Positions 4,556 to 28,857 of a DNA stretch of 38,010 nucleotides are shown here, piece by piece; within the stretch, counting starts at the first letter, position 1, and each line of letters begins with the position of its first letter. The notes under the pieces were generated by a model that saw only the letters and a program-made list of their open reading frames with translations, did no database searches and was not told where the DNA came from. The DNA comes from a virus: positions 1 to 38,010 of IMG/VR virus record IMGVR_UViG_3300009481_003511; one strand, written 5' to 3'. A program made the position numbers and the translations under genes.

Positions 4556-4920
4556 TGACTATCACCCTTCATAACTCTATATGAATCTGAATCTTCGTGA
4601 TGAGTTGATACTTCGAATATCAATCCATCTGTCAATGCTATTAATTGATGTGGTTGACCTGGTCTTTGTCTTACTACATCACCTTTACGTAATATGGATT
4701 CATTCATATCTGCATTTTCAGTATCTATCCATCTATATAAAAATTCACCCTTTTGTACATACCAAGTTTCATCTTTATCCATATGATAATGCATTGAAAA
4801 TTTACAATCACTTTTAAACTTTAATAACTTACCACAATACATTTCATTGTTTTCAATTATAAGTTCGTTTCCCCAACCTTTAGGTACATAACAACCCTCA
4901 ACAACTTCTGGTTTTACCAT
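4552..4920 (-). CDS. cupin, related to the mannose-6-phosphate isomerase type II domain
   Basis: A single cupin domain of 122 residues. KGWGNE at 14-19 is the typical opening of ManC/AlgA-type isomerase domains; the metal set is visible as H44, H46, E51 and H91. KGDVVRQRPGQPHQ at 79-92 is the second cupin motif. Stand-alone cupins like this occur in sialic-acid-like and other sugar clusters, where they are thought to isomerise sugars or sugar phosphates. It sits between a HAD phosphatase and an SDR, overlapping each by a few bases, so it probably acts on the same intermediate. Confidence 0.7.
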   Translation of the reverse strand: MVKPEVVEGCYVPKGWGNELIIENNEMYCGKLLKFKSDCKFSMHYHMDKDETWYVQKGEFLYRWIDTENADMNESILRKGDVVRQRPGQPHQLIALTDGLIFEVSTHHEDSDSYRVMKGDSQ

Positions 4921-7455: not shown

Positions 7456-7459
7456 AAAT

Positions 7460-9139
7460 TTACATCTCTAATATTTTCTCTATCTGGTCATTATCAATAT
7501 GTTCTCTGGCCTGTAAAAATTGGTCCATTGGCATTTCACCAAAATTAACTGGATTACCGTCCTTATCATTTAAAATCTTTGTAGCATCATCTAACTCTAA
7601 AACATAATTGTGAAAGTTGTTATCACAAACTGGTTCTCCCATACCATCAAAACTTATATCAAAGTGATTTTGTAAATCTCTTCTAACAACTTTCCACATT
7701 TCAGTTCCAGGATATGCTGTAGCTGTAAACATAGCTCTATTTACTCCATCCCGTAGTCTTTCATAAATGCTGCTGCCCTTTTGATGTCCTTTAGTCCAAA
7801 ATCGTTGTTGCCAAAGTATAAAAGCTACACTTGTCTTTAAGTGTTTCAAATCTTCTCCTGGATAAGCCATAATCCAGGTACAATTAGCATGTATCCCAGC
7901 ATCAGCACAAGTCTCTACTGCCGTCATCATTGTTTTAGGAAACTGATAAGTGTTTCCATTTACTTTTGTAGGGACAAGTCCGTTCTTCAGTATGAAGCCA
8001 CCTTTCTGCATTCTTGTCAAAGTGTACTCATCAGCTGATTCAGCTCCGAATCCAATATAAACACAACCTGATTCTGCCATATCATAAGCTCTCGCGTCAG
8101 CTTCATCCATTCGAGTATGTGTACCCCATCTAACGTGGTCAAGTCCAAACTCTTTAAATACAGGAACCATCTTCTTTATTCTTCGTTTATCAACAGCGAA
8201 GTTATCATCAGGAAATCCTATAAAATCTAAATCATACTTATCAACGTATTCTCTAATCTGTACAGCTATGTGGTCTGCACTTCTCATTCCGTAATTACGC
8301 TCTCCTTGTGCTCCCCTATAACAAAAGGCACAAGCATAAGGACAACCTCGACTACTAACTGACGTTAAACTTCTATTCATCGTAAAAGGTGTTGCTGAAC
8401 TATTGTTAGCAGCTATACCCCAAACAGGTGTATTGATATAATCTTCTAAAACATTATAACCATATGGGTCTGATTCTAATAAGTCTATAGCGGCATATGG
8501 TATATCATCTAAGTTAGAAGGTCTAAACCCCTCATAGATAAATCTATGTTTATCTAATATTTCACCAGCATAACTTTTACTTAATTTACCAGAATTTATT
8601 GCCTTATTTATTCCTTTGTCTCTGACTACTTTACCATCTTTACATATATCAAATATAACACCATCTCCCTCTGACCTGGCAATAGCATCTAATTCAGGTA
8701 TCCAAGTGAACAATCCACTTTTTATCTCTGTGGCTAAACCATTACCAGTAACTAAAAAACAATCTGGTTGTAATCTTTTAACTATTTTTGCAACCTCTTC
8801 TTGCCATCTTAGAGTAGTTATTTTTCCTGAAAAAGCAAATACATCTTGTTCACCTACATTTTCTAAATGTTTAGATATTAAATCTTCTGCTTCTTTATAG
8901 GTCAAATGTCTACCATTAGGTAGTCCTCTTTGTTCAGCAATCTTATCTTTTACCCTGTAACCATTCAAGTCTATGATATGTGGTTCTCCACCATATCGTC
9001 TGACGATAGCAGCTAAAATACCTGGACCTTCTGGTGGTGTATTAGGTGTAGCTGCTTCTCTCAAAGGCATATTAATAAAAGTAATTTTTATGCCTTTTAG
9101 TTCAGTATAAGATATGTCTTTTAGTATTTCTTGGTTCAT
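7460..9139 (-). CDS. B12-binding-type radical SAM enzyme
   Basis: A 559-residue protein. Residues about 15-160 form the Rossmann-like cobalamin-binding domain seen in B12-dependent radical SAM enzymes (INMPLREAATPNTPPEGPG, then IIDLNGYRV). The 4Fe-4S motif CxxxCxxC is at C266, C270 and C273 in GCPYACAFC, followed by the usual TIM-barrel features, for example DDNFAVDK and GFGAESADEYT. This class makes C- or P-methylations, ring contractions and similar radical chemistry. Between the NeuB-like synthase and the cytidylyltransferase it probably modifies the acidic sugar, perhaps by C-methylation. The classical DxHxxG cobalamin motif is not seen, so base-off binding is uncertain. Confidence 0.85.
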   Translation of the reverse strand: MNQEILKDISYTELKGIKITFINMPLREAATPNTPPEGPGILAAIVRRYGGEPHIIDLNGYRVKDKIAEQRGLPNGRHLTYKEAEDLISKHLENVGEQDVFAFSGKITTLRWQEEVAKIVKRLQPDCFLVTGNGLATEIKSGLFTWIPELDAIARSEGDGVIFDICKDGKVVRDKGINKAINSGKLSKSYAGEILDKHRFIYEGFRPSNLDDIPYAAIDLLESDPYGYNVLEDYINTPVWGIAANNSSATPFTMNRSLTSVSSRGCPYACAFCYRGAQGERNYGMRSADHIAVQIREYVDKYDLDFIGFPDDNFAVDKRRIKKMVPVFKEFGLDHVRWGTHTRMDEADARAYDMAESGCVYIGFGAESADEYTLTRMQKGGFILKNGLVPTKVNGNTYQFPKTMMTAVETCADAGIHANCTWIMAYPGEDLKHLKTSVAFILWQQRFWTKGHQKGSSIYERLRDGVNRAMFTATAYPGTEMWKVVRRDLQNHFDISFDGMGEPVCDNNFHNYVLELDDATKILNDKDGNPVNFGEMPMDQFLQAREHIDNDQIEKILEM

Positions 9140-9150
9140 ACCTATAAATA

Positions 9151-9984
9151 TCAGTCTATTGTATCATTTACTTTTCTTAATTTAGCTGCTATAGGAATTT
9201 CTGAACCATAAACTACTTTTATACCATCACCTACCATTAATTCCATTTTACGAACAGCATCGACTAAATCATCAACGTCTTGAATTGAAGCTGGTTGGTC
9301 AGAACCATACATCGTTCTATCTTTAGTGATATGAAATTCGACACACTCAGCACCAAGAACTACAGACCCCACACAAGCATCCATTCCATTATAATGATTA
9401 GAAAATCCTACCTTCGTATCAGGATAAAGACGTTTCAATGTTTCAACATATCGTAGATTTATTTCTTCAGCTTTTGTTGGATATGTGCTTGTACACGCTA
9501 AGACATACTCTACGTTATTTAATATATCCATAGCTGCTTGAACCTCATCATCGGTACACATTCCTACAGATAGTATTACTGGTTTACCAGTATCATTTAG
9601 TTTTTCAAGAAACTCTTTATCTGTTGCCATAGCTGAGGCTACTTTGTGATACTTGACATCTAAATACATTTCAACTAAATCTAAACTCATCTTATCCCAA
9701 CAAGAAACTATAAAGTCTACAGAATATTTTTTAGAGTAGTCTTGTAACTCTATGTATTGTTTAATACTAAACTCTATTCCTTCTTTTTGTTCTCTCGTTG
9801 TTGTACCAAAAGGTGATTCTCTTGGTGTGTCTAACTCATCTTTTGTGTAAACAGAATCAATATCTCGTTTTTGAAATTTAACTGCATCACATCCAGCCTT
9901 AGCTGCTTTCCTAATCAACTCTTTAGCGAGTTTCATATCTCCGTTGTGATTGATACCAATTTCTGCTATAACATAAGTACTCAT
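9151..9984 (-). CDS. NeuB-like nonulosonic acid synthase lacking the SAF domain
   Basis: The 277-residue protein is the TIM-barrel half of sialic acid synthase: AEIGINHNGD at 7-16, DAVKFQKR at 33-40, and late VEFHITKDRTMYGSDQPAS, matching the active-site strand with the metal and PEP ligands. NeuB-family enzymes condense PEP with a hexosamine to make a nine-carbon acid. Normal members have about 345 residues and end in an antifreeze-like SAF domain that completes the neighbouring subunit's active site; here it is absent. The gene follows a 35-base gap containing AGGAG and an AT-rich tract, the only appreciable gap in the glycan block. A weak -10-like TATATT lies at 10005-10010, but I see no -35. 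Confidence 0.85.
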   Translation of the reverse strand: MSTYVIAEIGINHNGDMKLAKELIRKAAKAGCDAVKFQKRDIDSVYTKDELDTPRESPFGTTTREQKEGIEFSIKQYIELQDYSKKYSVDFIVSCWDKMSLDLVEMYLDVKYHKVASAMATDKEFLEKLNDTGKPVILSVGMCTDDEVQAAMDILNNVEYVLACTSTYPTKAEEINLRYVETLKRLYPDTKVGFSNHYNGMDACVGSVVLGAECVEFHITKDRTMYGSDQPASIQDVDDLVDAVRKMELMVGDGIKVVYGSEIPIAAKLRKVNDTID

Positions 9985-10019
9985 AACCTTACTCCTACTT
10001 TATTAATATATATCTAATT

Positions 10020-10670
10020 TTATTTGTAAAAACACAAATCTTTTTGAACTACAATATCTTTCCATTGTGGCTCTGATGAATAATGTTCTCCTATTTCTAT
10101 GTGATTATTATAACCATAGTCTTTCATAAATTCTATTACTTCTTCAGCTAAAGGAGCCCCTTCGTTATACTCAACGTAAGAAACTTCTAATATTATACCC
10201 TCAGCTTTTTTACATAAGTTTGTACCACCTCTTAAAATATCTAACTCTGAACCTTGTGTATCTAATTTAACAAGTTGAAACTCACTACCTTCTTCAAATA
10301 AATCATCTAACGTTTGTAGTGTTTTAGGTATCTCCTTAACAAGATGTGGAATGTCCCAGTAATTTGATTCCTTATAATAAGATGCTCCTTCAGTCTGTGG
10401 TTTATCACTACGAGTATAAAACTTTACGTTTCTTTCTGTATCACCCAAGGTTGCTATGACGTAATTATCATTACTATCTTTTGTTACATCTTGTAAAGCT
10501 GGTTCGTGTACTTCATTGGCCTCAACCATCCATATCACAGAAGTTGGCCAAACATCTTTAGCCCAACTATAGAATTGACCAGTATGGGCTCCTACATCTA
10601 ATATAGCTACAGGGTCACCTATAATACTTTTTACCTCGTGTAGTTTCATTGATTGTCCGTCTTTATACAT
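10020..10670 (-). CDS. FkbM-family SAM methyltransferase
   Basis: The 216-residue protein has the SAM motif LDVGAHTGQF at 24-33 and the FkbM signature VKLDTQGSELDIL at 134-146. FkbM enzymes O-methylate hydroxyls, commonly on sugars of polysaccharides or glycolipids. The first Met overlaps the upstream stop by 8 bases and has GAGAG 13 to 14 bases before it; Met8 is an alternative with little difference to the fold. Its place directly after a DUF5672 protein and a second methyltransferase suggests it methylates the assembled oligosaccharide. Confidence 0.85.
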   Translation of the reverse strand: MYKDGQSMKLHEVKSIIGDPVAILDVGAHTGQFYSWAKDVWPTSVIWMVEANEVHEPALQDVTKDSNDNYVIATLGDTERNVKFYTRSDKPQTEGASYYKESNYWDIPHLVKEIPKTLQTLDDLFEEGSEFQLVKLDTQGSELDILRGGTNLCKKAEGIILEVSYVEYNEGAPLAEEVIEFMKDYGYNNHIEIGEHYSSEPQWKDIVVQKDLCFYK

Positions 10671-11385
10671 TGTGTAAACTCTCTAACAATTCAACATCTT
10701 CACATTTTTCTTTAATTTCATTGTAAGCTCTACCGTGACCTTTAGCTGGTATTTCTCCCCAAGGTTTATGTAGACCAAAAGGTACTCCAACTACAGGTGC
10801 TACATAACCGTTATCGATTGAAAAACTTAAAACTTCTGATACTAATGGTTTCTTATCAAGACAAGCACTAAAGAAGTAATCTTCACATTCATTACCACCG
10901 TGCTTTAAATAATCAGCACGTTTGTACTTTATACAATCTAAAAGATATTGTTTTTTTCTTAATGAAAAACCACCATTCATCACCCACGTGTACTCAGTAT
11001 TTAAATCAGGAATATTATTCCCCCAATAACCTCCTATGTAATCAAAATGTTCAAAATCACCAATCTTATAGTTTGAATTAGGACATATCATAGAATCTGC
11101 CTCAAAGTATAATATAGTATCACCTTCACATTGTTCCCATAGTGCTTCTGTAACCATCAAATCATTTGATTCTGGCCATTGAGGTAAACTATCAAATCCT
11201 AAATTAGTTGTAATCGTCCTATCAAAATATTTTCTGTTTGTAATTCTCTTGACATAATTAGCATTACCGGTACCATGAAATATTTGTAACTTCCAATCAT
11301 CATCGAGTTGATTCATTACACTATCTATCACAAAAGGTAAAGCTTTGTGTTCTCGTGTTTCTATTATGAGTGCTACTTTACTCAT
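10663..11385 (-). CDS. DUF5672-type putative glycosyltransferase
   Basis: Starting at the ATG at 11385 (ATGA overlap with the upstream stop, GGAG eight bases before), the protein is 240 residues. It shows the DUF5672 features: a LIIETREHKALPFVI start, FEADSM at 94-99 in place of the GT-A DxD, FDYIGGYW at 114-121 and NGGFSLR at 137-143. Members occur in eukaryotic, bacterial and viral glycan clusters and are regarded as GT-A-like transferases, though few have been characterised. A longer reading from 11418 exists but its first 11 residues are not family-like. Donor and acceptor are unknown. Confidence 0.75.
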   Translation of the reverse strand: MSKVALIIETREHKALPFVIDSVMNQLDDDWKLQIFHGTGNANYVKRITNRKYFDRTITTNLGFDSLPQWPESNDLMVTEALWEQCEGDTILYFEADSMICPNSNYKIGDFEHFDYIGGYWGNNIPDLNTEYTWVMNGGFSLRKKQYLLDCIKYKRADYLKHGGNECEDYFFSACLDKKPLVSEVLSFSIDNGYVAPVVGVPFGLHKPWGEIPAKGHGRAYNEIKEKCEDVELLESLHNV

Positions 11386-12086
11386 TTTTTCTCCATAAAA
11401 CTTAACAATGTTGGCCAAATATAATCTTTATAACTTGTATTACCTGTTTCTAATTTACAACTCTCAATATTATCACGAATGTATTTCATTTGTTCTTCGT
11501 TAATATAACTCGTCTTTTGTATGTTATTGTAATTTGTTTCAATATCGTTTATTATATCTGTTGTTAGAGTATCACCTGGTTCTATAACCTCGAAGCCATA
11601 TAATGATTTCCATTGTCCACTACAAGTGTGTAGGTCCTCAATCACATATTGCCCTCCTGATTTAACAGCATCAAGTAACACGGTTAACGTAGTCTGCATT
11701 TGTCTCATAGTATGACCACCGTCATCTATTATTAAATCAAAATCTTTACCATGCAGTGTAACAAATCTATTTAAATCATTCACATCTTGTTGATTACCCT
11801 TAAATAAAACTGACCGGTTTAAGTATGGATTGTCTTTCATTTTCTCTCTAAATATATCACAATAACCTGACCTGTCCTCTTCATTAAAGATATCGAATCC
11901 ATATATTGTAGCATTAGGAAAATACTCTAACCACATTCTATGTGAACAACCTGTTTCAACTCCTATCTCTAAAACTTTCTTAACATCGTATCTGATTGTA
12001 TCAAATCGATTTTCATAATGTTTAAGGTAACCTAATTCGTACATATCGACATCATATTTTTCTGCTAAATCAAATAAAACTCCCAT
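11382..12086 (-). CDS. class I SAM-dependent sugar O-methyltransferase (MycE/cephalosporin hydroxylase-like fold)
   Basis: A 234-residue methyltransferase with LEIGVETGCS at 39-48, the metal-binding IIDDGGHTMRQM at 119-130 and YVIEDLHT at 147-154. This IDDGSHxxxQ pattern is typical of the metal-dependent macrolide-sugar O-methyltransferases (MycE, MycF) and relatives in O-antigen clusters. It probably methylates a hydroxyl on a sugar of the phage glycan. It starts one base after the glycosyltransferase upstream ends. Confidence 0.8.
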   Translation of the reverse strand: MGVLFDLAEKYDVDMYELGYLKHYENRFDTIRYDVKKVLEIGVETGCSHRMWLEYFPNATIYGFDIFNEEDRSGYCDIFREKMKDNPYLNRSVLFKGNQQDVNDLNRFVTLHGKDFDLIIDDGGHTMRQMQTTLTVLLDAVKSGGQYVIEDLHTCSGQWKSLYGFEVIEPGDTLTTDIINDIETNYNNIQKTSYINEEQMKYIRDNIESCKLETGNTSYKDYIWPTLLSFMEKK

Positions 12087-12087
12087 A

Positions 12088-12831
12088 TTATTCCTCTTTC
12101 ATCAAATAGTGTTCTTTGACATTCGTATGTCCTACGTGTAGTATAATTTCATTACCACAACCTACATCACCTTGACCTACACCCCATTGTATTGGCATCG
12201 CATATGGATGCACTCCCGTATTCCAAGCAGCTCTACTCATTTGTAGTGGAGCTCTTTTTGGATTTGTCGCCATTAATCTAGCAAATTCTGTTAACCACAT
12301 TCTAGCTCTGTGATTCTTAGTATGAAATGACATCCACCATAAATCATAAGTTAAAGCATTTCCTCTACTACCATCCTCTTCTATGTGATAATCACCGTCA
12401 TTTCCTCTTGTGTGAATACCATCAACTTTTACTAATTGTCTTTCATTTTGTGGTACACAAATTCCAAATTTCTGAGTTATAGGTATTACCGTACGCACTT
12501 CTTCATCTACAAACACAATATCAGAATCCATCGAGATTGCTATATCGGCATCTGATGCTAACAACCCTACGGCTTGATAATAATCACAACAATGCCAACC
12601 CCATTTTTTATGTGATTTATCAAACGGACTTTTATCAACATCTATTTGTCTAACTTCGACATCATAACCTTCACCTAATTCAGGTAAATCAGTATATAAC
12701 ACTAACTTAGCTTCAGGAAAGAATTGTTTGACGGCTGAATAAGTTGGGTCTAACCTAGAGTTTTCATCTAAATTAGTTTGATTCCAACCACGTGTTTTAC
12801 CAAACTCTGCAAATATAATTTCTAAATTCAT
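12088..12831 (-). CDS. GT-A fold putative glycosyltransferase
   Basis: The 247-residue protein has a nucleotide-diphosphosugar transferase look: SMDSDIVF with the metal-binding DSD at 102-104 after a hydrophobic strand, and a distal VGQGDVGCG segment. A central WWMSFHTKNHRAR stretch and MATNPKRAP resemble other uncharacterised phage and marine bacterial GT-A proteins. No membrane segments. Its start overlaps the GT9 gene's stop as ATGA. Family number and donor cannot be assigned by eye. Confidence 0.6.
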   Translation of the reverse strand: MNLEIIFAEFGKTRGWNQTNLDENSRLDPTYSAVKQFFPEAKLVLYTDLPELGEGYDVEVRQIDVDKSPFDKSHKKWGWHCCDYYQAVGLLASDADIAISMDSDIVFVDEEVRTVIPITQKFGICVPQNERQLVKVDGIHTRGNDGDYHIEEDGSRGNALTYDLWWMSFHTKNHRARMWLTEFARLMATNPKRAPLQMSRAAWNTGVHPYAMPIQWGVGQGDVGCGNEIILHVGHTNVKEHYLMKEE

Positions 12832-13946
12832 AATAACTCCTTTATACTTTTATGAACCGTTTCTGGTGTAATCAAACTCATACATTTACCATCATATGGA
12901 CAAGGAAACTGGTCATAACAATTTAAACAATCTAATTCTTTACGAACTAATTTTTTACCAAGTCCAAACAAATTTACCTCTTGATGTGGTGTAGGTCCAA
13001 AGAAACTAACTATCTTCGTGTTTAACGAGATTGCTATGTGTAATGCCACCGTATCTCCAGTAACCACTAAATCACATAGGTCTACTAAACTACAAAATTG
13101 TTCAATCGAATACTGATTAGTTGTATTGATAACTCTGAATGACCGATGGCTCTCCCATAGTTTTAAATTAGTTTCTGTCTCTGAATGTGAACCGGCTAAA
13201 ATTATTTTATTATTTCTATCTTGTAATAAATATTCAATTAATTTATCAAACCCTTCAAATGTCCATTTTTTATGTGGATAAACTGGTCCACAACCTGTGT
13301 TTAAAAGTATTAATTTATGTTCAGGTTTAATATTATGTTTCGAGTAAAACATTTTTCTAAACGTATCATTAAATTCTTTATCTAAATTTATTATTGGTTT
13401 TTCATCTTTATACTCTATCTCCGCAATTTGATATATAAGTTCTTGATAACTTAATTTATTTTTAGTTTTAGCTCCCCAATTATCTAAACACATATCATAA
13501 TGATAAATAGAACCTTTATTTAGAGGCATAGGATAACCTTCTTCGTGTAATCCATATCCTCTGTATTCATCTGCTGTGAATGACATTATCATTGAAGTTG
13601 CCTTTGGGTCTTTATCTAAATTAATTATGATATCAAATTTTTCGTGTTGTAATATTCTAACGGTCTCAGAATTATATTTTAATATTCTATCTACATACGA
13701 ATTGTTTTTAATAAAAAATGTGGCTTCGGGTTGAGTTACCCAAGTTAATTGTGAATCAGGATACTTTCGTTTTATACCTTCAGCTAATGCTGTACTTCTA
13801 ACGACATCTCCTAAAGCATCTAATTTAATCAGTAAGATTCTTTCCTTGTAAGGATTATAGTGGGAACTATTTTCACAATCTGTACAACCCATAGTCCAAT
13901 AATACTTACAGGGTCTATCTCCTTTAAAATGTCTACAGGCTTTCAT
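12828..13946 (-). CDS. GT9 glycosyltransferase (heptosyltransferase-like)
   Basis: The 372-residue GT-B protein matches ADP-heptose:LPS heptosyltransferase relatives: LIKLDALGDVVRSTAL at 39-54 is the GT9 N-terminal signature, GCGPVYPHKKW marks the start of the second Rossmann domain, and VTGDTVALHIAISLNTKIVSFFGPTP is the nucleotide-sugar site. A cysteine motif (C4, C13, C21, C24) with CRHFKGDRPC opens the protein, as in other GT9 proteins of this subtype, and may bind metal; a second cluster, LDCLNCYDQFPC, is near the end. It would add a heptose or similar sugar. Overlap with the gene upstream is 14 bases. Confidence 0.85.
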   Translation of the reverse strand: MKACRHFKGDRPCKYYWTMGCTDCENSSHYNPYKERILLIKLDALGDVVRSTALAEGIKRKYPDSQLTWVTQPEATFFIKNNSYVDRILKYNSETVRILQHEKFDIIINLDKDPKATSMIMSFTADEYRGYGLHEEGYPMPLNKGSIYHYDMCLDNWGAKTKNKLSYQELIYQIAEIEYKDEKPIINLDKEFNDTFRKMFYSKHNIKPEHKLILLNTGCGPVYPHKKWTFEGFDKLIEYLLQDRNNKIILAGSHSETETNLKLWESHRSFRVINTTNQYSIEQFCSLVDLCDLVVTGDTVALHIAISLNTKIVSFFGPTPHQEVNLFGLGKKLVRKELDCLNCYDQFPCPYDGKCMSLITPETVHKSIKELL

Positions 13947-14706
13947 ACAACTCTCGATATGTTCGTTCTATCCAGTAAGTTGCATCTCTGTTCATTGGGT
14001 TAGGGGGTATTGAATTATAATGATAAACCCAACCAGCAGTTAAGAAATGTAGTTCATCTGACCACCATTCTTTACCGTGAACATATAATAAATTTTTTCT
14101 GTAAAGGTCTTGTAAGTTGTAACAACTCGGTAACATTTTTACATCGATACCTTCCTCGTGTAACATATAATTTACAATAGTTTGGTCAGTACCACATCTT
14201 AACGTATCGATAGCTGTCGTAATCTTTTCAGTATTACTTAAATAATATTCTTTCATTCTTTCAAAGAAAGGTTTGTGGTCTGAATTAACTACTTGAAATC
14301 CTCCGTTGATATATCTCCAAGGGTGTATTCGTTTTCCTTCGAATAACATATCACCGAAACCTTTTATACTTCTTGTTACCCATTCGTAACAACCATCTAC
14401 TTGTACACCACAATATCTTCTATCAGTCTCTTCAAAGAAATTAGGACAATTAGGATGTACTATTGTATCAGCATCGACCATAAGAATTTGGTCATAGTCA
14501 ATATTATTTGCTTCTAAAATATCAAACATATAGTATCTTTGCCAAGTAATCTTCATATAGTCTACTGGATATATTAAATCTTCCCATACGATTAATTCAC
14601 TATCATTGTTATCACACCAGTGTTTCCAACTCTTAACTGAATAATGATAAGATTTATTTCTTCCGTTTCCTACATCTATGTTTGGTATAAAAACTATGTT
14701 CTTCAT
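13933..14706 (-). CDS. GT-A fold putative glycosyltransferase (GT8-like)
   Basis: The 257-residue protein has MVDADTIVHP with a DAD metal motif at 78-80, RYINGGFQVVNSD further on, and a DQTIVNYML segment, a pattern shared with GT8/GT34-type retaining transferases. The FIPNIDVGNGRNKSYHYSVKSW opening is like other phage and marine GT-A proteins of unknown specificity. It overlaps the DUF616 gene by 4 bases (ATGA) and the GT9 gene by 14. Donor sugar unknown. Confidence 0.65.
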   Translation of the reverse strand: MKNIVFIPNIDVGNGRNKSYHYSVKSWKHWCDNNDSELIVWEDLIYPVDYMKITWQRYYMFDILEANNIDYDQILMVDADTIVHPNCPNFFEETDRRYCGVQVDGCYEWVTRSIKGFGDMLFEGKRIHPWRYINGGFQVVNSDHKPFFERMKEYYLSNTEKITTAIDTLRCGTDQTIVNYMLHEEGIDVKMLPSCYNLQDLYRKNLLYVHGKEWWSDELHFLTAGWVYHYNSIPPNPMNRDATYWIERTYRELYESL

Positions 14707-15392
14707 TTTTTACCTTTGTGAGGTTTAGTATCTCTTTTGAAATATTCGTTGTTTCGTGAATCACCTTGCATATAATTAAACTTGAGTTGATTCTTCCAAG
14801 CCACGTAATTAAAACTTAATTGGTCTCGTTTACTATTATATTTTATTTCAGTCCACCAATCTTCCATAGTGTCAATACAATCTTGTTCGTTGTGTCGTCT
14901 CAATATTACCATACCAGTAATCAATCCGTTTTGTGCTGGATATCCTAATGTAGCATATTTATCGAGTTGTTTTTTAATCACGTGAGGATTATCTTTGTAG
15001 TTTAACATACCTCGTTCTGGTGTTTTTTCCATCCAAGAGTTACCTGCTGTAATAATCAAATTAGCTTCATCGTAAATACAATTTCTAGCATCAAGAGCAT
15101 TTTGATTATGACTGAAGAAGGCTACATTACTATCTGATAAATACTTTTCTACTAACTCACCAATGTTACCTACAACACTCATATTACCATCGATAAAAAT
15201 ACTATACTCATAATCTTGTAAGTATCTATGTGGTAAGACTTTAAATCTTTTTGCATTTCTATTGTTATCTGAGTATAAAGATAGACTATTTTCTTCACTA
15301 AAACATTTCCAATCCCAACCTGTAGGTAATTGTTGTTCTTTAACATCATCGTAGTTCCCAAAAATAGAAGTATAAACTATAGAGTTTGACAT
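14703..15392 (-). CDS. DUF616 (TOD1/MUCI70-like) glycosyltransferase
   Basis: The 229-residue protein carries DUF616 hallmarks: YTSIFGNYD at 7-15, AKRFKVLPHRYL at 47-58, and FIDGN at 66-70, where the family has W-I-D-G-N and the DxD-like metal site. Plant members such as MUCI70 and TOD1 are proposed transferases; bacterial and phage members sit in glycan clusters. The late motif RDQLSFNYVAWK is also family-typical. It overlaps the downstream-reading GT8-like gene by ATGA and the large fusion gene by 16 bases. Confidence 0.75.
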   Translation of the reverse strand: MSNSIVYTSIFGNYDDVKEQQLPTGWDWKCFSEENSLSLYSDNNRNAKRFKVLPHRYLQDYEYSIFIDGNMSVVGNIGELVEKYLSDSNVAFFSHNQNALDARNCIYDEANLIITAGNSWMEKTPERGMLNYKDNPHVIKKQLDKYATLGYPAQNGLITGMVILRRHNEQDCIDTMEDWWTEIKYNSKRDQLSFNYVAWKNQLKFNYMQGDSRNNEYFKRDTKPHKGKK

Positions 15393-16846
15393 ATCAATCC
15401 CTCACTATCTCTTAGTATTTTATTTTGAGTTTTAGGATAAAACTTACCTGCATGTTCTCCTATTTTTTTTAGAATCTTCAATTTACCTGCTTCTACATAT
15501 TCATCAATTAATTGTTTTAAGTCTGGAAATAAACCATAGTCATCAAATATAATAATGGGTTTATTAAATGTATTAATACTATTATCTATATCACTTTTTA
15601 AAGTTTGATATGTGTGAACACAATCAATAAAAACAATAGAATCTTTATCTTCAAAGTCCCACATTTGATTGTAAACATCCATTAATTTAAACTCAACGTT
15701 GTCTACCTCTCCTAAATACTCTCGAGCATAGTCATGCTTTTCGGGGGAAACATCTACTGCTATAACTTTTTTAAATAATTTACACAATACTTTTGTTCCG
15801 TGTCCAAGTGAACTTCCTATTTCAACCAATGTCTTAGTTAGATGGTCTGAATCTCTGAAGAAGTCGATGATATCAGCTTTAAATTTTAATGATGTCGTTG
15901 TTTTTGATTCTGATTTATCAATCACATCTTCTAATAACATTCGTTTAAAATCATCAACCAGATAATGCTCACCTTTGACTATGTTTCCTGCTATCGGAAA
16001 TTGTCTCTTTACATCATATACCTTAGAATCTCTGACTACAAGTTGTAAAGCTCCACTTTGATTACCTACATTTAACTTTGCTTTAGAACGAATATATAAT
16101 TGTGTTCTCATATCCATATGTCTTAAATTAAGAACTTTGTTTATGTAATCAAAAGAAGTTTCTTTTAAAGGTACAGGTGAATAGTAAAAGTAAGGTAAAT
16201 CCTTATCCATATCTAATACATCTTTTATCATATTATCGTCTGTAAAATTATATCTATCAGAGATTAATAGTACACCAAAATTACCATCAGTATATTCATT
16301 GATTATTTCATCACCTATTTTCTGTTCTTCTTTAGAAAAATATAACTCAGGTTGTGAATCTGATAATTCATCTGGTTCGAACTGCCAAAACTTTAGTATT
16401 TGTTCTAATAAGGGAATATCTGTTTTGTCTTTATTGTATATTCTGTAGTGGTCGTGAAATACTTCACCTACTATTTCATCCTTATAACCATCGACATAAG
16501 GATTATTATCAAAGATAGTTTTAACATTGTCAAACGGATTATTCCATACACTCCAATGTCCTGCATACTCTTTAAATAAATCGTTAAGTAGTTTAGGTGT
16601 AGGTAAGTAAACTTTACTTTCGGGATACTTTTGTTTAAGTAATCTTGGCATAGCAGACATTATACCCCAATCACCAATCCCGTGAGCAGTTCTCATAACT
16701 ACAAATTCTTGTTTTTCAAGATATTCATCTGGTATCCTGAAACCCTCTGATTCCTCAAATCCCAAATTATCAACGTGATTCACACCATATAATTTATTAT
16801 CAACCAATCTCCAAAAAAGTTGTTGTGGGTATTTTTTATCTGACAT
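15377..16846 (-). CDS. two-domain protein: GT9-like glycosyltransferase fused to SAM methyltransferase
   Basis: The 489 residues split into two parts. The N-terminal 300 look like a divergent GT9/GT-B protein: RTAHGIGDWGIMSAMPRLL at 52-70 replaces the heptosyltransferase GDxxxxxP motif and GNQSGALQLV at 261-270 stands where GT9 has GxDSG. The C-terminal part is a class I methyltransferase with VEIGSSLGHG at 341-350, VIAVDVSPEK at 361-370 and FIDCVHTYQT, like the Methyltransf_24 group. A single polypeptide would transfer and methylate a sugar in sequence. The join near residue 310 (KSESKTTTS) reads as a linker. No frameshift is needed. Confidence 0.7.
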   Translation of the reverse strand: MSDKKYPQQLFWRLVDNKLYGVNHVDNLGFEESEGFRIPDEYLEKQEFVVMRTAHGIGDWGIMSAMPRLLKQKYPESKVYLPTPKLLNDLFKEYAGHWSVWNNPFDNVKTIFDNNPYVDGYKDEIVGEVFHDHYRIYNKDKTDIPLLEQILKFWQFEPDELSDSQPELYFSKEEQKIGDEIINEYTDGNFGVLLISDRYNFTDDNMIKDVLDMDKDLPYFYYSPVPLKETSFDYINKVLNLRHMDMRTQLYIRSKAKLNVGNQSGALQLVVRDSKVYDVKRQFPIAGNIVKGEHYLVDDFKRMLLEDVIDKSESKTTTSLKFKADIIDFFRDSDHLTKTLVEIGSSLGHGTKVLCKLFKKVIAVDVSPEKHDYAREYLGEVDNVEFKLMDVYNQMWDFEDKDSIVFIDCVHTYQTLKSDIDNSINTFNKPIIIFDDYGLFPDLKQLIDEYVEAGKLKILKKIGEHAGKFYPKTQNKILRDSEGLICQTL

Positions 16847-17477
16847 TCAACTCTCTACTAAAATTTTGATTATAAAATAAGTTTTGTTGTTCTTGTTTTT
16901 GTATCGTCTTTGGGTGATATAAACTTAATTCTTCGTGTGGTGGTAAGTGTGAATATGTTTTACAACCTGTTATGTATTCGTGTAAGGGTCTTGTCCATCT
17001 TATGTTTTTATCGTTACGAAATACTCTTGCTTGATAATCAGGATAGTTTACCCAACCTTTTTCTGTTACTCTCCAACCCCACTTTTGTATATGTTTTTGT
17101 TCCATCCCATCTACCGTATTAACTCTTGGTATCCAAATCAAATCAATCCCATCATTCATTTCTATTATTTGTTTAAGTTGTTGTAATAATGTTTCGTGTG
17201 GATACTCATCGGCATCTATGTGAAATATATAATCACCTGTTGAATTTTCTATAACTGAATTTTTATGAGCGGCAAAATCACCGTCAAGTTTTCTTTTGTA
17301 AACTATAGCTTTGTTTTCAGATAGATATTCACCTAAAACAGCCTCTACCTTTTCATCATCACCATCTATACAAACTACAATTTCATCCTCAGAATCTATG
17401 TAATTATTTAATATTTGTAATAACTTATTTAATTCTTCGAATTCATTATGAACCGTAATACCGTAACTAATTTTCAA
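16836..17477 (-). CDS. GT2 family glycosyltransferase
   Basis: A compact 213-residue GT-A protein of family 2: MKISYGITVHNEFEEL opening, VVCIDGDD at 34-41, the acceptor-side KNSVIENSTGDYIFHIDADE with the DAD metal site at 88-90, and a W-rich acceptor region with HEY in PLHEYITG. It resembles SunS/Kdo-core type GT2 enzymes that lack membrane segments. It probably acts early in glycan assembly, being among the first glycosyltransferases transcribed after the GT4 pair. It overlaps its neighbours on both sides by 11 bases. Confidence 0.85.
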   Translation of the reverse strand: MKISYGITVHNEFEELNKLLQILNNYIDSEDEIVVCIDGDDEKVEAVLGEYLSENKAIVYKRKLDGDFAAHKNSVIENSTGDYIFHIDADEYPHETLLQQLKQIIEMNDGIDLIWIPRVNTVDGMEQKHIQKWGWRVTEKGWVNYPDYQARVFRNDKNIRWTRPLHEYITGCKTYSHLPPHEELSLYHPKTIQKQEQQNLFYNQNFSRELNVR

Positions 17478-21617: not shown

Positions 21618-21635
21618 CATATATATATGTATATA
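21618..21635. repeat. AT palindrome and repeated 18-mer upstream of the RHH-like gene (operator candidate)
   Basis: Bases 21618-21629 read CATATATATATG, a perfect 12-base palindrome, extended to CATATATATATGTATATA at 21618-21635. The same 18 bases occur inverted at 26270-26287, between the polymerase and clamp genes. Here the palindrome falls just downstream of a probable -10 box, a normal operator position. The sequence is low-complexity and could recur by chance in AT-rich DNA. Confidence 0.4.
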
Positions 21636-21664
21636 AATATATATTACGTTAATATTTTAATCAA
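21636..21664 (-). promoter_or_regulatory. probable sigma70-type promoter for the RHH-like gene and glycan operon
   Basis: On the minus strand TTGATT (21664-21659) and TATATT (21641-21636) are spaced by 17 bases. The -35 lies inside the end of the SLOG gene. The predicted start point lies about 7 bases below the -10, next to the palindrome at 21618-21629, and GAGG precedes the gene's ATG. This is the best promoter I can see for the long glycan transcript. Confidence 0.45.
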
Positions 21665-22054
21665 CTTTTTTAATTTTTCAGCATATTGTATTGTATTTTT
21701 TGTACCATTTGATTCAACTCCCTCAGGTATAAATGCTACAATTATATCACTATATTCTGCTATTTGTTTATTTCTTTTAAAATAATTTGAAACATAGTAT
21801 GGTCTATCATATTGTGAAGCTGGTAACTTACAATGCATATTCCATCTATAATGTACTGGTGGAAATTCTACGTAATTCATACCTAATTCTAATGCAAACT
21901 TCTTAGCAAATCCATCAGCCCCTTCTCGTTGTCCACCACTGACTATCTCGGCATCAGGATTCTTTTGTTTTATATCAAATATTAAATCTTTAACCTTTTT
22001 CTTATTAGTGTATGCTCTACTACCAACAATACCTACTTTAATCTTCGTAGTCAT
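21644..22054 (-). CDS. SLOG/DUF2493-family nucleotide-binding protein
   Basis: The 136-residue protein is a single Rossmann-like SLOG domain of the YspA/DUF2493 type: VGIVGSRAYTN at 7-17, IVSGGQREGAD at 37-47 with the GGxxGaD phosphate loop, and a late NKQIAEYSDIIVAFIPEG segment where the family has RNxxMA-x-x-AD. SLOG proteins bind nucleotides or their derivatives; some sense signal nucleotides in conflict systems and others process modified nucleotides. It overlaps the gene upstream by 17 bases and lies three genes from a DUF1599/Nmad1 protein. Confidence 0.8.
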   Translation of the reverse strand: MTTKIKVGIVGSRAYTNKKKVKDLIFDIKQKNPDAEIVSGGQREGADGFAKKFALELGMNYVEFPPVHYRWNMHCKLPASQYDRPYYVSNYFKRNKQIAEYSDIIVAFIPEGVESNGTKNTIQYAEKLKKLIKILT

Positions 22055-22457
22055 TTCTTTTTTGTTTTTTCATTGTTTTATCTGAGGTTACAAATTTAGT
22101 AACCTTATAAAATTCTTCTAAACCAGTAAAAAGTCCACTGGTAGTTTTGTAAGTATAACAAAATCTTGTGTGTTGATTGTCAACTGATTCTGGTCTTATG
22201 TCAAAAAACACAAAATCATTTGATTTAGTTTCACTGCCTTGTTTTACAATCGTCTTGAATGACATTTCATCTTCCCATCGCATTAAAAAGTCTCTTAACT
22301 CTGTACCCTCAAAATCACCCTCATCGAACCAAAGATATAACAATATTGCTATCTGTAGTTCATTATGAATAGCATTGACTTTTTCCATAACATATTTTTC
22401 GACATCTGTATTTATAAAATCAGTCAATTTTAGACGTAAGGTTGTTTTACTTGTCAT
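22038..22457 (-). CDS. hypothetical protein
   Basis: I recognise no family in these 139 residues. There is a helical N-terminal half (VEKYVMEKVNAIHNELQIA), a central acidic stretch (DEGDFEGTELRDFLMRWEDE) and a beta-rich middle (SNDFVFFDIRPES), ending in a basic tail. No signal peptide or transmembrane helix. The start shares a base with the nuclease stop (TAATG), and it overlaps the SLOG gene by 17 bases, so it is certainly translated with them. A partner of the nuclease is a reasonable guess. Confidence 0.55.
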   Translation of the reverse strand: MTSKTTLRLKLTDFINTDVEKYVMEKVNAIHNELQIAILLYLWFDEGDFEGTELRDFLMRWEDEMSFKTIVKQGSETKSNDFVFFDIRPESVDNQHTRFCYTYKTTSGLFTGLEEFYKVTKFVTSDKTMKKQKRNDYED

Positions 22458-23320
22458 TACTTAACTCCTGCATCACAATGTTCCGTTTGATTGAATTCAC
22501 AAAACCTACAATTTTTCTTAGATGGTCTCTTAATATAATTATGTTCTAAATTATATTCTCCATCAACAAAAGATTCATCAATGAATTGATTCAAATTATT
22601 TATTACTTTATTTACACTTGGTTTACCACTAGCAGGTGAAAACGTTTGAACTCTACGTTGTGGAAAATCTAATTTTTCATATAATTTTCTCTTAACGATA
22701 AAATATTCTACATCTACTTTATCTATAGGTATATCAAGTTGAGCACTATAAAAATATTTATACAATAACAACTGGTCAGTTTTATTCTTGTCGGCTTTCA
22801 TATACTTATTCCAACCCATTGTAGAAGTTTTGATATCTATAATCTTGTATCTATCTCTAAAAGTATCGTGTAACACGACATCCATATAACCTATAAATTT
22901 AATTTTATTAGGTAACTCGTACTCAACCGGAACTTCTATACCAACTAATTCATAGTTCTTCTTACTGAAATACATATTACGTTTCTTTTTGAACCAATCG
23001 AGTATAGATAGTCCGTGTGAATAAAATTCTTCCATATCCTCTTGTTCACAAAATACCTCACCTCCATTATTTTCCATAGCATTGGTATAGTTTTTTTTCA
23101 TTCTATGTAATAGCATTTCATCTAAAGGAAGAGCATCAGCCATCTTAATAGTATCATTATACATTACGGTAAGATACGTCTGTAATACCTCGTGCATACT
23201 TGTACCAAATAACGTGTGAATATTATCTGTAAATTCACCTAATTTATCAATATAGTTTAATTTCCATTTGTAAGGACACGTGTCCCATTGACTATATTGA
23301 CTATAACTTATTCGTTTCAT
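22457..23320 (-). CDS. PD-(D/E)XK nuclease with Fe-S cysteine cluster (Cas4/AddB-like)
   Basis: The 287-residue protein follows the PDDEXK_1 plan of Cas4 and the AddB/RecB C-terminus. SYSQYSQWDTCPYKW at 5-19 is the opening, FGTSMHEVLQ carries H43, GYMDVV has D147, IDIKTS has D162 and K164, and Q183/Y187 complete the site. C15 with C271, C274 and C282 matches the four-cysteine iron-sulphur cluster that holds such nucleases together. Members are DNA exonucleases working in recombination or end processing. Here it is beside the replisome, so a recombination or host DNA degradation role is likely. Overlap with the upstream gene is ATGA. Confidence 0.85.
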   Translation of the reverse strand: MKRISYSQYSQWDTCPYKWKLNYIDKLGEFTDNIHTLFGTSMHEVLQTYLTVMYNDTIKMADALPLDEMLLHRMKKNYTNAMENNGGEVFCEQEDMEEFYSHGLSILDWFKKKRNMYFSKKNYELVGIEVPVEYELPNKIKFIGYMDVVLHDTFRDRYKIIDIKTSTMGWNKYMKADKNKTDQLLLYKYFYSAQLDIPIDKVDVEYFIVKRKLYEKLDFPQRRVQTFSPASGKPSVNKVINNLNQFIDESFVDGEYNLEHNYIKRPSKKNCRFCEFNQTEHCDAGVK

Positions 23321-23700
23321 TTACCCCACTTATCACGACCAACTATTGTAGCCATAATTCCATAATTAGATACATCAAGATACGCATCTTCTAACGGTTC
23401 GTCTTTTACAGCTGAATCACGACCAGTCATCAACAAAGTTTTAACTCGTTGTAACTTATCATTCATTCTAAACCACAAACCTGTAAGTGATAACTTTATT
23501 TCTTCTGGTGTTTGTAATTGTGTTCCAACACTAATATTACCTGGACCATAATCGTGTTGTTTGTGTAAGAACAATTCATATTGTTCTCGTTGAATCTTCT
23601 TAAACTCTTTGGTCATCTCTGGCCACTCTTCTTCCATCTTTTCTATAACGTCATAATCCTCTGAATCTACACGAGGACTATCTTTTATAACCTTTGACAT
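23317..23700 (-). CDS. DUF1599/Nmad1 protein (nucleotide-modification-associated domain)
   Basis: A 127-residue single-domain protein. The family motif is plain: LFLHKQHDYGPGNISVG (K47, D50, G54-N55), RMNDKLQRV with D81-K82, and EPLEDAYLDVSNYGIMA with E101, D105 and D109. Nmad1 was defined as a domain recurring in gene neighbourhoods for modified DNA bases in phages, and is proposed to process modified nucleotides; biochemistry is sparse. It has its own strong promoter (23726-23755) and AGGAG ribosome site. A MazG-like all-alpha pyrophosphatase is an alternative fold reading. Confidence 0.75.
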   Translation of the reverse strand: MSKVIKDSPRVDSEDYDVIEKMEEEWPEMTKEFKKIQREQYELFLHKQHDYGPGNISVGTQLQTPEEIKLSLTGLWFRMNDKLQRVKTLLMTGRDSAVKDEPLEDAYLDVSNYGIMATIVGRDKWGK

Positions 23701-23725
23701 ATATGTCTCCTAATTTACATACTTG

Positions 23726-23755
23726 AATATACGAATAAAAATGTATACAAGTCAA
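23726..23755 (-). promoter_or_regulatory. strong sigma70-type promoter, copy 1 of a repeated promoter
   Basis: On the minus strand TTGACT (23755-23750), an 18-base spacer and TATATT (23731-23726) lie in the 60-base gap between gp62 and the Nmad1 gene. The 13 bases ATTCGTATATTCA across the -10, the ACTTGAC at the -35 and a GTATA at the same place in the spacer are identical to those upstream of the polymerase at 28828-28857. It reads into the Nmad1, nuclease and SLOG genes. Confidence 0.75.
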
Positions 23756-23760
23756 GTCTT

Positions 23761-24270
23761 TTATTCATTACCTGCTGTATATCCACCTGTACTACCAAGA
23801 ACATTTAAACCAGCTTCTTCTATTTTTTTAGATTCAACTCCCCATTTCTGAGCAAGTTCTCCTAATTCTAACATACCACCTTCTGTGAGCATATACATTT
23901 CTACCATGTCGTAAGCTTCTTTCTTACTGACTTGTTCGTGATTTGCAACTATATTGATTAACCAATCTGGTTGTGCCATTTGATTTCTCCCTTTTGTATA
24001 TTTTAACCATTGATTACCTTTTGGTAAAATATTTGTGTATAATTTATATAACTCTTTAGGTTTTAAGTTATACTTTTGAAATTCATTTACTAACTCGACC
24101 CATTCCATTTTCATAGATAAGAATCGATGTGTCATATAATTTGACCAAGACTTTTTATCTTCGTCTGATATCTCTTCCCAATAATTAGGACTTTGAACTG
24201 ACGTTATTTGTTTTATGTGGTCGAATAGACTTTTCTTTTTTATTAAAGATTTTTTTCCAGTTTTCTTCAT
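23761..24270 (-). CDS. 62: clamp loader small subunit, T4 gp62-like
   Basis: The 169-residue protein matches marine T4-type gp62: SLFDHIKQIT followed by NYWEEISDEDKKSWSNYMTHRFLSM, then LYKLYTNILPKG and LKYTKG. gp62 is the single non-ATPase subunit joined to four gp44 subunits in the loader that opens and places the sliding clamp. The likely start is the ATG at 24270, which has no good ribosome site directly upstream and lies inside the 51-residue gene, so translation is probably coupled. gp62 follows gp44 and gp45 as in other T4-like phages, with two small genes between. Confidence 0.8.
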   Translation of the reverse strand: MKKTGKKSLIKKKSLFDHIKQITSVQSPNYWEEISDEDKKSWSNYMTHRFLSMKMEWVELVNEFQKYNLKPKELYKLYTNILPKGNQWLKYTKGRNQMAQPDWLINIVANHEQVSKKEAYDMVEMYMLTEGGMLELGELAQKWGVESKKIEEAGLNVLGSTGGYTAGNE

Positions 24271-26304: not shown

Positions 26305-28797
26305 TCAAAAAAATCTTTCTATTGTTTTTGTAGCATCTGTTGGTTCGTCCCAACCGAGAGCTTCATATAACATCATAATTTTCTTGTGTAAAGCTTTATC
26401 GTACAACTTAGTATGATGAATGTACTTTCTTATAAAATCTAAAACTTCAGGCGGGTCTTCGTGTCCTTTATAAGCAATTGTACTTAGTCCTAATGGATTT
26501 TGTTTCAAGTACACCCATTTAATTTTATCACCATTAGATATTCCTGAATATTGTCTTGATATCTTATGATGTTTTAGAAAATCATTATAGTACAGAGAAC
26601 TTTTCACGTGAACTGGTGTACCTAAATGATGAGACTTGAATATATCACCATCTTTTCTACGATACTTATGAATACCTTTAACACCAATAGGAATAGATAT
26701 TTTGTTAAAATCCATTAATTTCATACTTTCTTTGAAGTTAATAATAAACTCATCTAACTTCTTTTTAGGAACACTCATCAAAATATCTTCTAATACTTTG
26801 GATAACATTGTTCTCATAGCTACAGGAAAACTTGAACGAACCGTATCTAAACCTTTTACTAATAACTTATCAACTTTCTTACCATTGTCGTTGATAATCT
26901 TTAGTCCATATCTTTTCTTTGTAACGAATAGACCACTTTTAGCAATAACCTCTTGTTTGATATCAAAACGATGTTTATCTAAATTACAAAACTTTTTACC
27001 AAAATAATCATAACCCTTGTTTAAATAATTCTGAACCTCACTTGCTACTTCAAGGATAGCTTTCGACATCTTATCTTCATCTTTTGTATTCAAGTTAGGA
27101 AATCTTTTCTCAACTAAAGGCAGAGCTGAATAGAATACTGAATCTGTGTCGATATAAATACAATGGTCTTTTACATCACCAAGTTCTTTGTTGTAATACG
27201 CATTACCTATTTTTCTTGTAAATTTAATCAATGACTGACCTGTACTTGTTACAGCCTCAGCATTATCTAAATCATAAAATCTAAAAGCCGGAAGTCCTAA
27301 TACACCATACAAACTATTTAAAACAATTTTCTGAAGATGCTGTCGTCTATCAAAATAATCTGATTTTTCTCTATCACCTTCTTCGTGAAACTTTTTAGAT
27401 AACTTACGATATTCTACACGTTCATCAAACCATTTTCTCAAGAGAGCAGAAAGTAATCCGTTTTTATCTGTACGATACATTACACCATTCGTAGCTATTC
27501 CTATTTGTTCGTTATCTAACATACGTTTTAATTCTGTCTCTGTATATCTGTTTAATACTTTTTCATTGTGTGTAATCGAGTATGTTTTTTTGTTGTCCTT
27601 TTTCAAAAACTCTTCAGGATTCCAACCTTCTATCTTACCTAATTTTGTCTCAGGTGATATGTTTAATGACATAATACAAGATGGATACATACTTGTAATA
27701 TCTAAATCATACACCCAGTCGTGTTTACCCTTTTGAGGGTCTTGTACGTAAGCACCTTCAAATTTTTCTAATTTAGTAATTCCCTTTTTAGGTTTGTTTG
27801 GAGCAACAATACTTTGTTTTCTTAAATAAACTAAAATAGCTCCTTCAAGATACCTAGAACTCATAAAAACATCTTCGTACGGACAATGACCGAGATGTGC
27901 TAGACCACGAGCAATCTCAATAAAATCTAATTTATCGTCAATTTTCTTGACAAGTTTTACGTCTTGTAAGTTATAATCAACAAATTTTTCTAAATCATTT
28001 TCATATAAATCATTAAGTGTACCTTCATACTCAACTTTCTTTTCACCTACTTCATGCTCACCTATAGCATCTAATCTATATGATGGTCGTTGACTGAATG
28101 TAAACTTTTTATATAGAGTTAAGTAATCTAAAATACTCACACCAGCTATTTTGTAACGATTAGAAAAATCACTCCAATGTACTTGTCCAATAGGTGATAA
28201 TAAATCAGCAACATTTTTTCCAACTATTTGTTGAGCTCTGTTATATAAATAAGGAACATCAAAAAACTCTACATTCCAACCTGTTAAAATAGTTGGTTGA
28301 ATCTCCATATACTTTTTAAAGAATGCATTTAATAAATCATATTCATCTTTAAAAGATACTATAGTATCTTCACTCTTATTGTTTGTTAATTTACTTTTAG
28401 GGTCTAACACATAACAAAAATATTCATCTAATAATGGGTCATTGAAACCAATTGAAGTTATTGTGTTTTCAGCTTTCTGTATGTTAGGGAAACCTTCTGT
28501 TACCTCAACCTCAATATCAAATATCATAGTACGATGACCTTCTGATGCATCGTCTGAATCTGTATAATTATCAACTAATACACGTATCTCTGGGTTCACG
28601 TCTGATTCAAATAACTCTGGTTGTTCTTTGTCCCACTCAGTAATTCTTTTCAGTTTATCACCATACAAAGATACAAAGTTACCTGCTCTATGTTTTACAT
28701 AGGCATATTTTTTGTAACGAAAAGTCTGATGTCCAAACTTATCGTCCCAAATATGCATTTTGTTAATTCGTCTATCGTAATAGATGTTCTGATACAT
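26305..28797 (-). CDS. 43: family B DNA polymerase, T4 gp43-like
   Basis: The 830-residue replicative polymerase is complete. Exonuclease motifs: FDIEVE with D94 and E96, GWNVEFFDVPYLYNR at 173-187, and YNLQDVKLV at 275-283. Polymerase motifs: DLDITSMYPSCIMSLNI at 364-380 (A), KIVLNSLYGVLG at 490-501 (B) and YIDTDS at 548-553 (C, with the catalytic aspartates). It copies the phage genome with proofreading, held by the gp45 clamp. It is about 70 residues shorter than T4 gp43, like the polymerases of marine T4 relatives. A promoter (28828-28857) lies immediately upstream. Confidence 0.96.
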   Translation of the reverse strand: MYQNIYYDRRINKMHIWDDKFGHQTFRYKKYAYVKHRAGNFVSLYGDKLKRITEWDKEQPELFESDVNPEIRVLVDNYTDSDDASEGHRTMIFDIEVEVTEGFPNIQKAENTITSIGFNDPLLDEYFCYVLDPKSKLTNNKSEDTIVSFKDEYDLLNAFFKKYMEIQPTILTGWNVEFFDVPYLYNRAQQIVGKNVADLLSPIGQVHWSDFSNRYKIAGVSILDYLTLYKKFTFSQRPSYRLDAIGEHEVGEKKVEYEGTLNDLYENDLEKFVDYNLQDVKLVKKIDDKLDFIEIARGLAHLGHCPYEDVFMSSRYLEGAILVYLRKQSIVAPNKPKKGITKLEKFEGAYVQDPQKGKHDWVYDLDITSMYPSCIMSLNISPETKLGKIEGWNPEEFLKKDNKKTYSITHNEKVLNRYTETELKRMLDNEQIGIATNGVMYRTDKNGLLSALLRKWFDERVEYRKLSKKFHEEGDREKSDYFDRRQHLQKIVLNSLYGVLGLPAFRFYDLDNAEAVTSTGQSLIKFTRKIGNAYYNKELGDVKDHCIYIDTDSVFYSALPLVEKRFPNLNTKDEDKMSKAILEVASEVQNYLNKGYDYFGKKFCNLDKHRFDIKQEVIAKSGLFVTKKRYGLKIINDNGKKVDKLLVKGLDTVRSSFPVAMRTMLSKVLEDILMSVPKKKLDEFIINFKESMKLMDFNKISIPIGVKGIHKYRRKDGDIFKSHHLGTPVHVKSSLYYNDFLKHHKISRQYSGISNGDKIKWVYLKQNPLGLSTIAYKGHEDPPEVLDFIRKYIHHTKLYDKALHKKIMMLYEALGWDEPTDATKTIERFF

Positions 28798-28827
28798 TTA
28801 GGTTATATACCTTAATTTAGATATGTG

Positions 28828-28857
28828 AATATACGAATGAATTCCTATACGCGTCAA
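28828..28857 (-). promoter_or_regulatory. strong sigma70-type promoter, copy 2, upstream of the polymerase
   Basis: On the minus strand TTGACG (28857-28852), an 18-base spacer and TATATT (28833-28828). The -35 overlaps the last codons and stop of the reductase gene. It shares ACTTGAC, GTATA and ATTCGTATATTCA at identical offsets with the promoter at 23726-23755. The start point would be about 25 bases before the polymerase ATG. Confidence 0.7.

Follow-up and report, generated by a model that had tools for sequence, protein, structure and literature searches.

We analyzed a 38,010-base IMG/VR fragment of an uncultivated marine virus, referred to below as the window. Its minus strand carries a T4-type replication module comprising SSB, UvsX, a FEN-like nuclease, an HhH-GPD protein, the gp41 helicase, ribonucleotide reductase, a family B polymerase, the sliding clamp, the clamp loader gp44, a zinc protein, and gp62, with some of these names taken from reading the sequence and from the annotation of Microcystis phage Mel-JY01 rather than from a family search of each gene. 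The same phage provided the closest tblastn match to the window polymerase (46%). Immediately downstream comes a four-gene unit, which a pair of small genes separates from an extended sugar cluster. The four minus-strand open reading frames of the unit were confirmed at positions 21644-23700 and overlap by 4, 1, and 17 nt in the order Nmad1, nuclease, U139, and SLOG (Table 1). The initial annotation had described a single overlapping unit and had assigned family names to its genes; the reading frames bear out the former, and Pfam and profile searches matched the latter, with a cysteine signature placing the nuclease among the [Fe-S] type.

Table 1. Features of the four-gene unit and its surroundings in the window
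Feature	Position	Strand	Support or location
Clamp-loader small subunit (gp62-like), constant upstream neighbor	23761..24270	-	phrog_225 E=9e-11 and synteny
Conserved promoter element TTGACTTGTATACATTTTTATTCGTATATTCA, -35 TTGACT, 18 nt, -10 TATATT	23724..23755	-	Upstream of Nmad1
Nmad1 / DUF1599 protein, 127 aa	23317..23700	-	PF07659, 28.4 bits against a cut-off of 25
Cas4-like PD-(D/E)XK nuclease, probable [Fe-S] cluster, 287 aa	22457..23320	-	PF12705 PDDEXK_1 E=1.8e-20
U139, 139 aa, alpha/beta, without Pfam family	22038..22457	-	67 distinct homologues, same position
SLOG-superfamily protein (YspA/cpYpsA-related, DprA-like Rossmann domain), 136 aa	21644..22054	-	PF10686 E=5.7e-9
A/T-only 20-nt element TATAYTTATATATGTATATA, 3' edge of the unit	21622..21641	-	Between the SLOG gene and u63
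Family B (T4-type) DNA polymerase gene	26305..28797	-	tblastn to T4-type polymerases
Second copy of the 32-nt promoter element	28826..28857	-	Upstream of the DNA polymerase gene

A search for the unit in other phages, which the initial annotation had suggested, recovered all four genes at 62 of the 74 nuclease-bearing IMG/VR loci with enough flanking sequence; since a locus entered the set by resembling the nuclease or Nmad1, the figure speaks for relatives and not for phages at large. Six of the 74 lacked U139 only, and four lacked a detectable Nmad1 only. In the nearest IMG/VR relatives, the complete order gp62-Nmad1-nuclease-U139-SLOG-u63-u78-GT-GT was kept. The overlaps go beyond chance, since spacings of -4 (Nmad1-nuclease), -1 (nuclease-U139), and -17 nt (U139-SLOG) were modal across distinct relatives. 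Many relatives tolerate insertions at the gp62-Nmad1 and Nmad1-nuclease junctions, where genes for ClpP, thioredoxin, an N6/N4-type methylase-like protein, and a 2OG oxygenase were found around Nmad1. The nuclease-U139-SLOG trio was almost never broken up, its -1 and -17 nt overlaps being present in most distinct pairs. Judged from sequence, the four genes are a genuine conserved, co-regulated unit linked to replication.

The initial annotation had also placed the unit under a dedicated strong promoter. A TTGACT-18-TATATT pair sits about 25 nt before the Nmad1 start, inside the 60-nt gp62-Nmad1 gap, and TTGAC(W)-18-TATATT with its 18-nt spacing was kept in 33 of 36 distinct gp62-Nmad1 gaps of 45-110 nt, embedded in a longer conserved stretch. 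In about nine relatives, Nmad1 overlaps gp62 by 4 nt, which leaves no gap for a promoter. An extended 32-nt pattern matched twice in the window (0.01 expected from shuffles), with no mismatch at the Nmad1 site and two at the DNA polymerase site. A weight matrix built from both sites found further copies in long relatives, where they precede the polymerase gene and a number of others, and the element thus represents a phage promoter class rather than one private to the unit: the conserved promoter stands, while its dedication to the four genes does not. A generic sigma-70 scan of the region showed no enrichment (32 found, 25.8 expected), and the promoter was therefore assessed by conservation. 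The T4 late promoter TATAAATA was not in excess either (9 in the window, 9.7 expected).

At the other edge of the unit, no terminator-like sites were found on the minus strand between the four genes and the glycosyltransferase genes; the unit and the glycosyltransferase cluster may therefore share a transcript. The A/T-only element TATAYTTATATATGTATATA was present once per contig in nearly all relatives. Its inverted-repeat stems were barely longer than those of shuffled sequences (8.7 versus 7.3 pairs), so we withhold any structural claim for it.

Its family marks the nuclease as a likely RecB/AddB/Cas4-type end-processing enzyme. It matched the phrog_69 exonuclease (1e-27), its residues D147, D162, K164, Q183, and Y187 were invariant in the alignment, and QxxxY was present in all 87 homologues. 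The window protein also has the four cysteines of the [Fe-S] signature (C15, C271, C274, and C282). The N-terminal cysteine was found in 86 of the 87 homologues and the C-terminal CxxC..C in 77, the other ten keeping Cys-rich tails with altered spacing. The nuclease shares its family, QxxxY, D..DxK, and the four-Cys signature with phage Cas4-like and RecB-family exonucleases (PF12705; phrog_69, phrog_1218), and differs from other PF12705 phage exonucleases in being embedded with Nmad1, U139, and SLOG. Phylogenomics has linked Cas4 with RecB, AddB, and Dna2 and described phage PF12705 proteins outside CRISPR loci (PMC5704561). Assignment as a CRISPR-associated Cas4 was rejected, the PADLOC matches to Cas4 being weak (E ~1e-3 or worse) against 1.8e-20 for PF12705, and no cas genes were recognized among the nuclease neighbors searched.

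The SLOG protein belongs to the YAcAr family (PF10686, 36.1 bits with a cut-off of 28.2), to which it scored better than to DprA. Its profile matched solved DprA structures over positions 3-136 (E=8e-6), and the GSR, SGG, and RN motifs were present in 62 of 62 distinct homologues, from which the LOG GGxGT motif was absent. It therefore resembles the DprA/Smf recombination mediator in its SLOG Rossmann domain, its motifs, and a full-length profile match, but it consists of a Rossmann-like domain only and lies well below the equivalog cut-off; assignment as a DprA equivalog was rejected accordingly (TIGR00732, 30.8 bits with a cut-off of 191). The neighboring U139 is predicted to adopt an alpha/beta fold (pLDDT 90), and its model gave no significant fold match in the PDB or BFVD. 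Its C-terminal tail, KQKRNDYED, is conserved and lies partly within the overlap with the SLOG gene, and the protein diverges much faster than the neighboring genes. Identity with RegA was considered and dropped, as hhalign with the HTVC008M RegA gave nothing.

Membership of Nmad1 in PF07659 is indicated by a score above the gathering threshold and by the presence of the core residues. The model is all-alpha (predicted fold, pLDDT 80), and K47, Y51, R78, K82, R85, E101, D105, D109, and Y113 were invariant over 15 distant homologues. A fold search of the PDB gave no match, a sequence search of the PDB returned noise or marginal coiled helices only, and no biochemical data on the family were found in the literature searched. 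A MazG-type enzyme (an all-alpha NTP pyrophosphatase), still a possible identity, drew neither profile nor fold support; hhalign against a phage MazG alignment, a shallow comparison with three sequences, gave a probability of 0.2%. Among relatives, both Nmad1 and the nuclease are strongly conserved, and the divergence of Nmad1 is uncoupled from that of neighboring genes. Nmad1 was 80-91% identical in phages whose PolB was only ~54-61% identical, with 89-91% against ~54-57% in some of them, a contrast that is subject to retrieval bias and could reflect exchange or strong constraint. Synonymous-site identity was also somewhat raised in those loci; for this reason, and because the loci had been retrieved by Nmad1 similarity, a reading as extreme constraint was set aside.

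The Nmad names reportedly originate with Iyer et al. 2013. The window protein exceeds the curated cut-off of the family and carries the nine invariant residues, but no modification enzyme was recognized near it in the window, and its context is one of replication and recombination. The initial annotation had stated that the Nmad1 family recurs near modified-nucleotide systems. We found DUF1599 in unrelated phages mostly among replication, recombination, and dNTP genes, a pattern rather than a statistic, since the contexts were hand-picked without comparison to a random gene. In crAss-like phages, for example, DUF1599 follows DNA polymerase A at a distance of one or two genes; in Methylophilales phage Melnitz, it comes straight after gp47-gp46-type genes; and in HTVC008M, it sits two genes past an exonuclease. 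In a Streptococcus agalactiae phage, the module that contains it also encodes RecT, a PDDEXK protein, and a Holliday resolvase, and in other phages DUF1599 adjoins or lies near dUTPase, SSB, ThyX, or thymidine kinase. In Streptococcus phage Str-PAP-1, it directly precedes a gene annotated as a DNA repair exonuclease, in whose product metallophosphoesterase-like motifs were seen by eye and no Pfam match was found. A Geobacillus phage and a Vagococcus plasmid carry DNA methyltransferases close to DUF1599, and the Paenibacillus and Lactobacillus contexts were less telling. In Brochothrix phage BL3, DUF1599 forms the C-terminal part of the 305-aa protein gp58 (2832-3749), whose N-terminal part matched no Pfam family.

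As in T4-type phages with gp46/gp47 and UvsX/UvsY, a predicted phage-encoded end resection lies beside UvsX and a T4-type replisome; here the nuclease is Cas4-like PD-(D/E)XK rather than Mre11/Rad50-type, SLOG and U139 are additional, and UvsY was undetected in relatives. UvsY was detected in T4 and HTVC008M and in none of 11 related records searched, including the complete Mel-JY01 and Flavobacterium phage immuto. The gp46-type AAA_23 domain was detected in T4, HTVC008M, and Mel-JY01 and was not found in immuto or nine marine fragments. Both absences are weak for the marine relatives, because contigs are incomplete and the genes may be unseen or too diverged. The Mel-JY01 locus shares the order gp44-Zn-gp62-Nmad1-...-nuclease-...-GT-GT with the window and differs by the insertion of MetK and a C5 DNA methylase and by SLOG and U139, which were not detected there. 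Mel-JY01 keeps Nmad1 and the nuclease and has an AAA_23 protein, so not every nuclease-bearing phage needs all four genes. In immuto, a DUF3310 gene (8676-8945) directly precedes the nuclease, in the slot held by Nmad1 elsewhere.

At about even odds, we read the locus as an accessory unit for replication and recombination in a large group of marine T4-like phages, acting through nuclease resection, a SLOG/DprA-like mediator, and Nmad1 working on nucleotides. The unit, its order, its overlaps, the promoter conservation, the domain assignments, and the conserved catalytic residues are directly supported; what each enzyme does, whether the proteins share a pathway, and which part each plays are inferred, at about an even chance. 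A role in replication is supported by the promoter element, found within the window only upstream of PolB and Nmad1, and the constant position of the unit between the clamp loader and u63 in many relatives also counts toward it, with the caution that synteny is not function. The nuclease motifs, the DprA profile match of SLOG, the undetected UvsY and gp46-type genes, and the DUF1599 contexts in other phages favor the reading as well. Weighing against it are the subset of genes kept by Mel-JY01 together with its AAA_23 protein, the closer match of SLOG to YAcAr than to DprA, the short PADLOC match to ShosA, and the failure to find a PDB fold match or a MazG profile relation for Nmad1. The four genes would be switched on together with the DNA polymerase through the common promoter class. 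The Cas4/AddB-like [Fe-S] nuclease would most likely resect DNA ends and feed the phage UvsX recombinase. The single-domain SLOG/DprA-like protein would most likely bind ssDNA or a nucleotide and help load or regulate UvsX, replacing a detectable UvsY; for jumbo phages with a replaced UvsY, a published survey put forward a DprA-type SLOG protein as a further ssDNA-binding protein (PMC7824862). Nmad1/DUF1599 would most likely be a small enzyme or regulator of all-alpha fold whose targets are dNTPs or the nucleotides freed at DNA ends, with U139 as a putative partner protein in the unit.

The proposal of the initial annotation, in which Nmad1 and SLOG make or handle bases that are modified or glycosylated while the nuclease degrades host DNA lacking such modification, appears quite improbable. 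It draws on the family name of PF07659, on the methyltransferases found near DUF1599 in the Geobacillus phage and the Vagococcus plasmid, and on those near Nmad1 in some relatives. N6/N4 methylase matches occurred in 10 of 22 records and a C5 methylase in Mel-JY01 only, so that some relatives may well methylate their DNA in the ordinary way. A cluster of 364-aa N6/N4-type methylase-like proteins is inserted near Nmad1 in some of them. In Mel-JY01, the stretch separating Nmad1 from the nuclease (7413-10004) holds a SAM synthetase and the C5-cytosine DNA methylase, both of which carry no annotation beyond "hypothetical". An 85.5-kb relative that keeps the unit gave no methylase match, which speaks against the proposal, as does the presence of DUF1599 in many temperate-type Streptococcus phages and in Lactococcus phages. 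The thymidylate-synthase family PF00303, which includes the phage dCMP and dUMP hydroxymethylases, was absent from the window, itself a fragment of its genome. It was also missing from 16 marine relatives and from the complete genome of Mel-JY01, the nearest named phage, which together make up 17 of the 18 related records; six of the relatives searched had ThyX instead. The only related record with PF00303 was immuto, in which no Nmad1 was found. A search for Tet/JBP oxygenases, run without a positive control, gave no matches. As for glycosylated DNA, the glycosyltransferases of the next operon to which the initial annotation had pointed sit in a cluster (179-17477) with NeuB, a CMP-sugar-type cytidylyltransferase, a GT9 heptosyltransferase-type protein, a radical SAM protein, FkbM, C-methyltransferases, and a 2OG oxygenase. 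Since NeuB, the cytidylyltransferase, GT9, and the FkbM and C-methyltransferases stand alongside them, the gene content suggests phage-encoded synthesis of a surface glycan. Together with the absence of PF00303, this cluster makes glycosylated DNA unlikely without disproving it.

Two other explanations leave modified bases aside. In one, the unit serves host takeover or counter-defense: the nuclease would degrade host DNA or disturb CRISPR adaptation, and SLOG and Nmad1 would sense or destroy NAD- or nucleotide-derived signals. Phage Cas4-like proteins can indeed influence host spacer acquisition (PMC5704561; PMC4283603), NAD-type ligands have been predicted for YAcAr SLOG proteins (PMC7824862), U139 diverges fast relative to its neighbors, and PADLOC gave weak matches to ShosA, DruK, and Cas4, that to ShosA over a short stretch only. 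We nevertheless consider this role unlikely, given the fixed place of the unit inside the replication module, the promoter class in common with PolB, a conservation of Nmad1 and the nuclease unlike that of typical arms-race genes, and the recurrence of DUF1599 with recombination genes in unrelated phages. It is also improbable that the locus is a loose neighborhood, in which four individually useful genes occupy a recombination-prone slot behind one promoter and do not act together. The uncoupled divergence of Nmad1, the subsets kept by Mel-JY01 and immuto, and the genes for ClpP, thioredoxin, methylase-like, and other proteins inserted around Nmad1 in many relatives fit such a slot, but the nearly unbroken nuclease-U139-SLOG trio and its overlaps argue against it.

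Beyond the accessory role in replication and recombination, a broader proposal can be made, which we regard as doubtful. Here DUF1599/Nmad1 would be a general partner of unrelated phage recombination exonucleases (Cas4-like, gp46/47, and other), dealing with the nucleotides freed at ends or controlling resection; it would function in recombination-dependent replication, its name would be misleading, and the marine SLOG protein and U139, as a new protein family, would substitute for UvsY. If this is true, phage replication and recombination would become the assigned role of a domain that annotations widely call "nucleotide modification associated", and recombination in a large group of marine phages would run with a toolkit other than that of T4. 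The analysis also yields a promoter class conserved among these phages, along with a set of four genes open to in vitro work.
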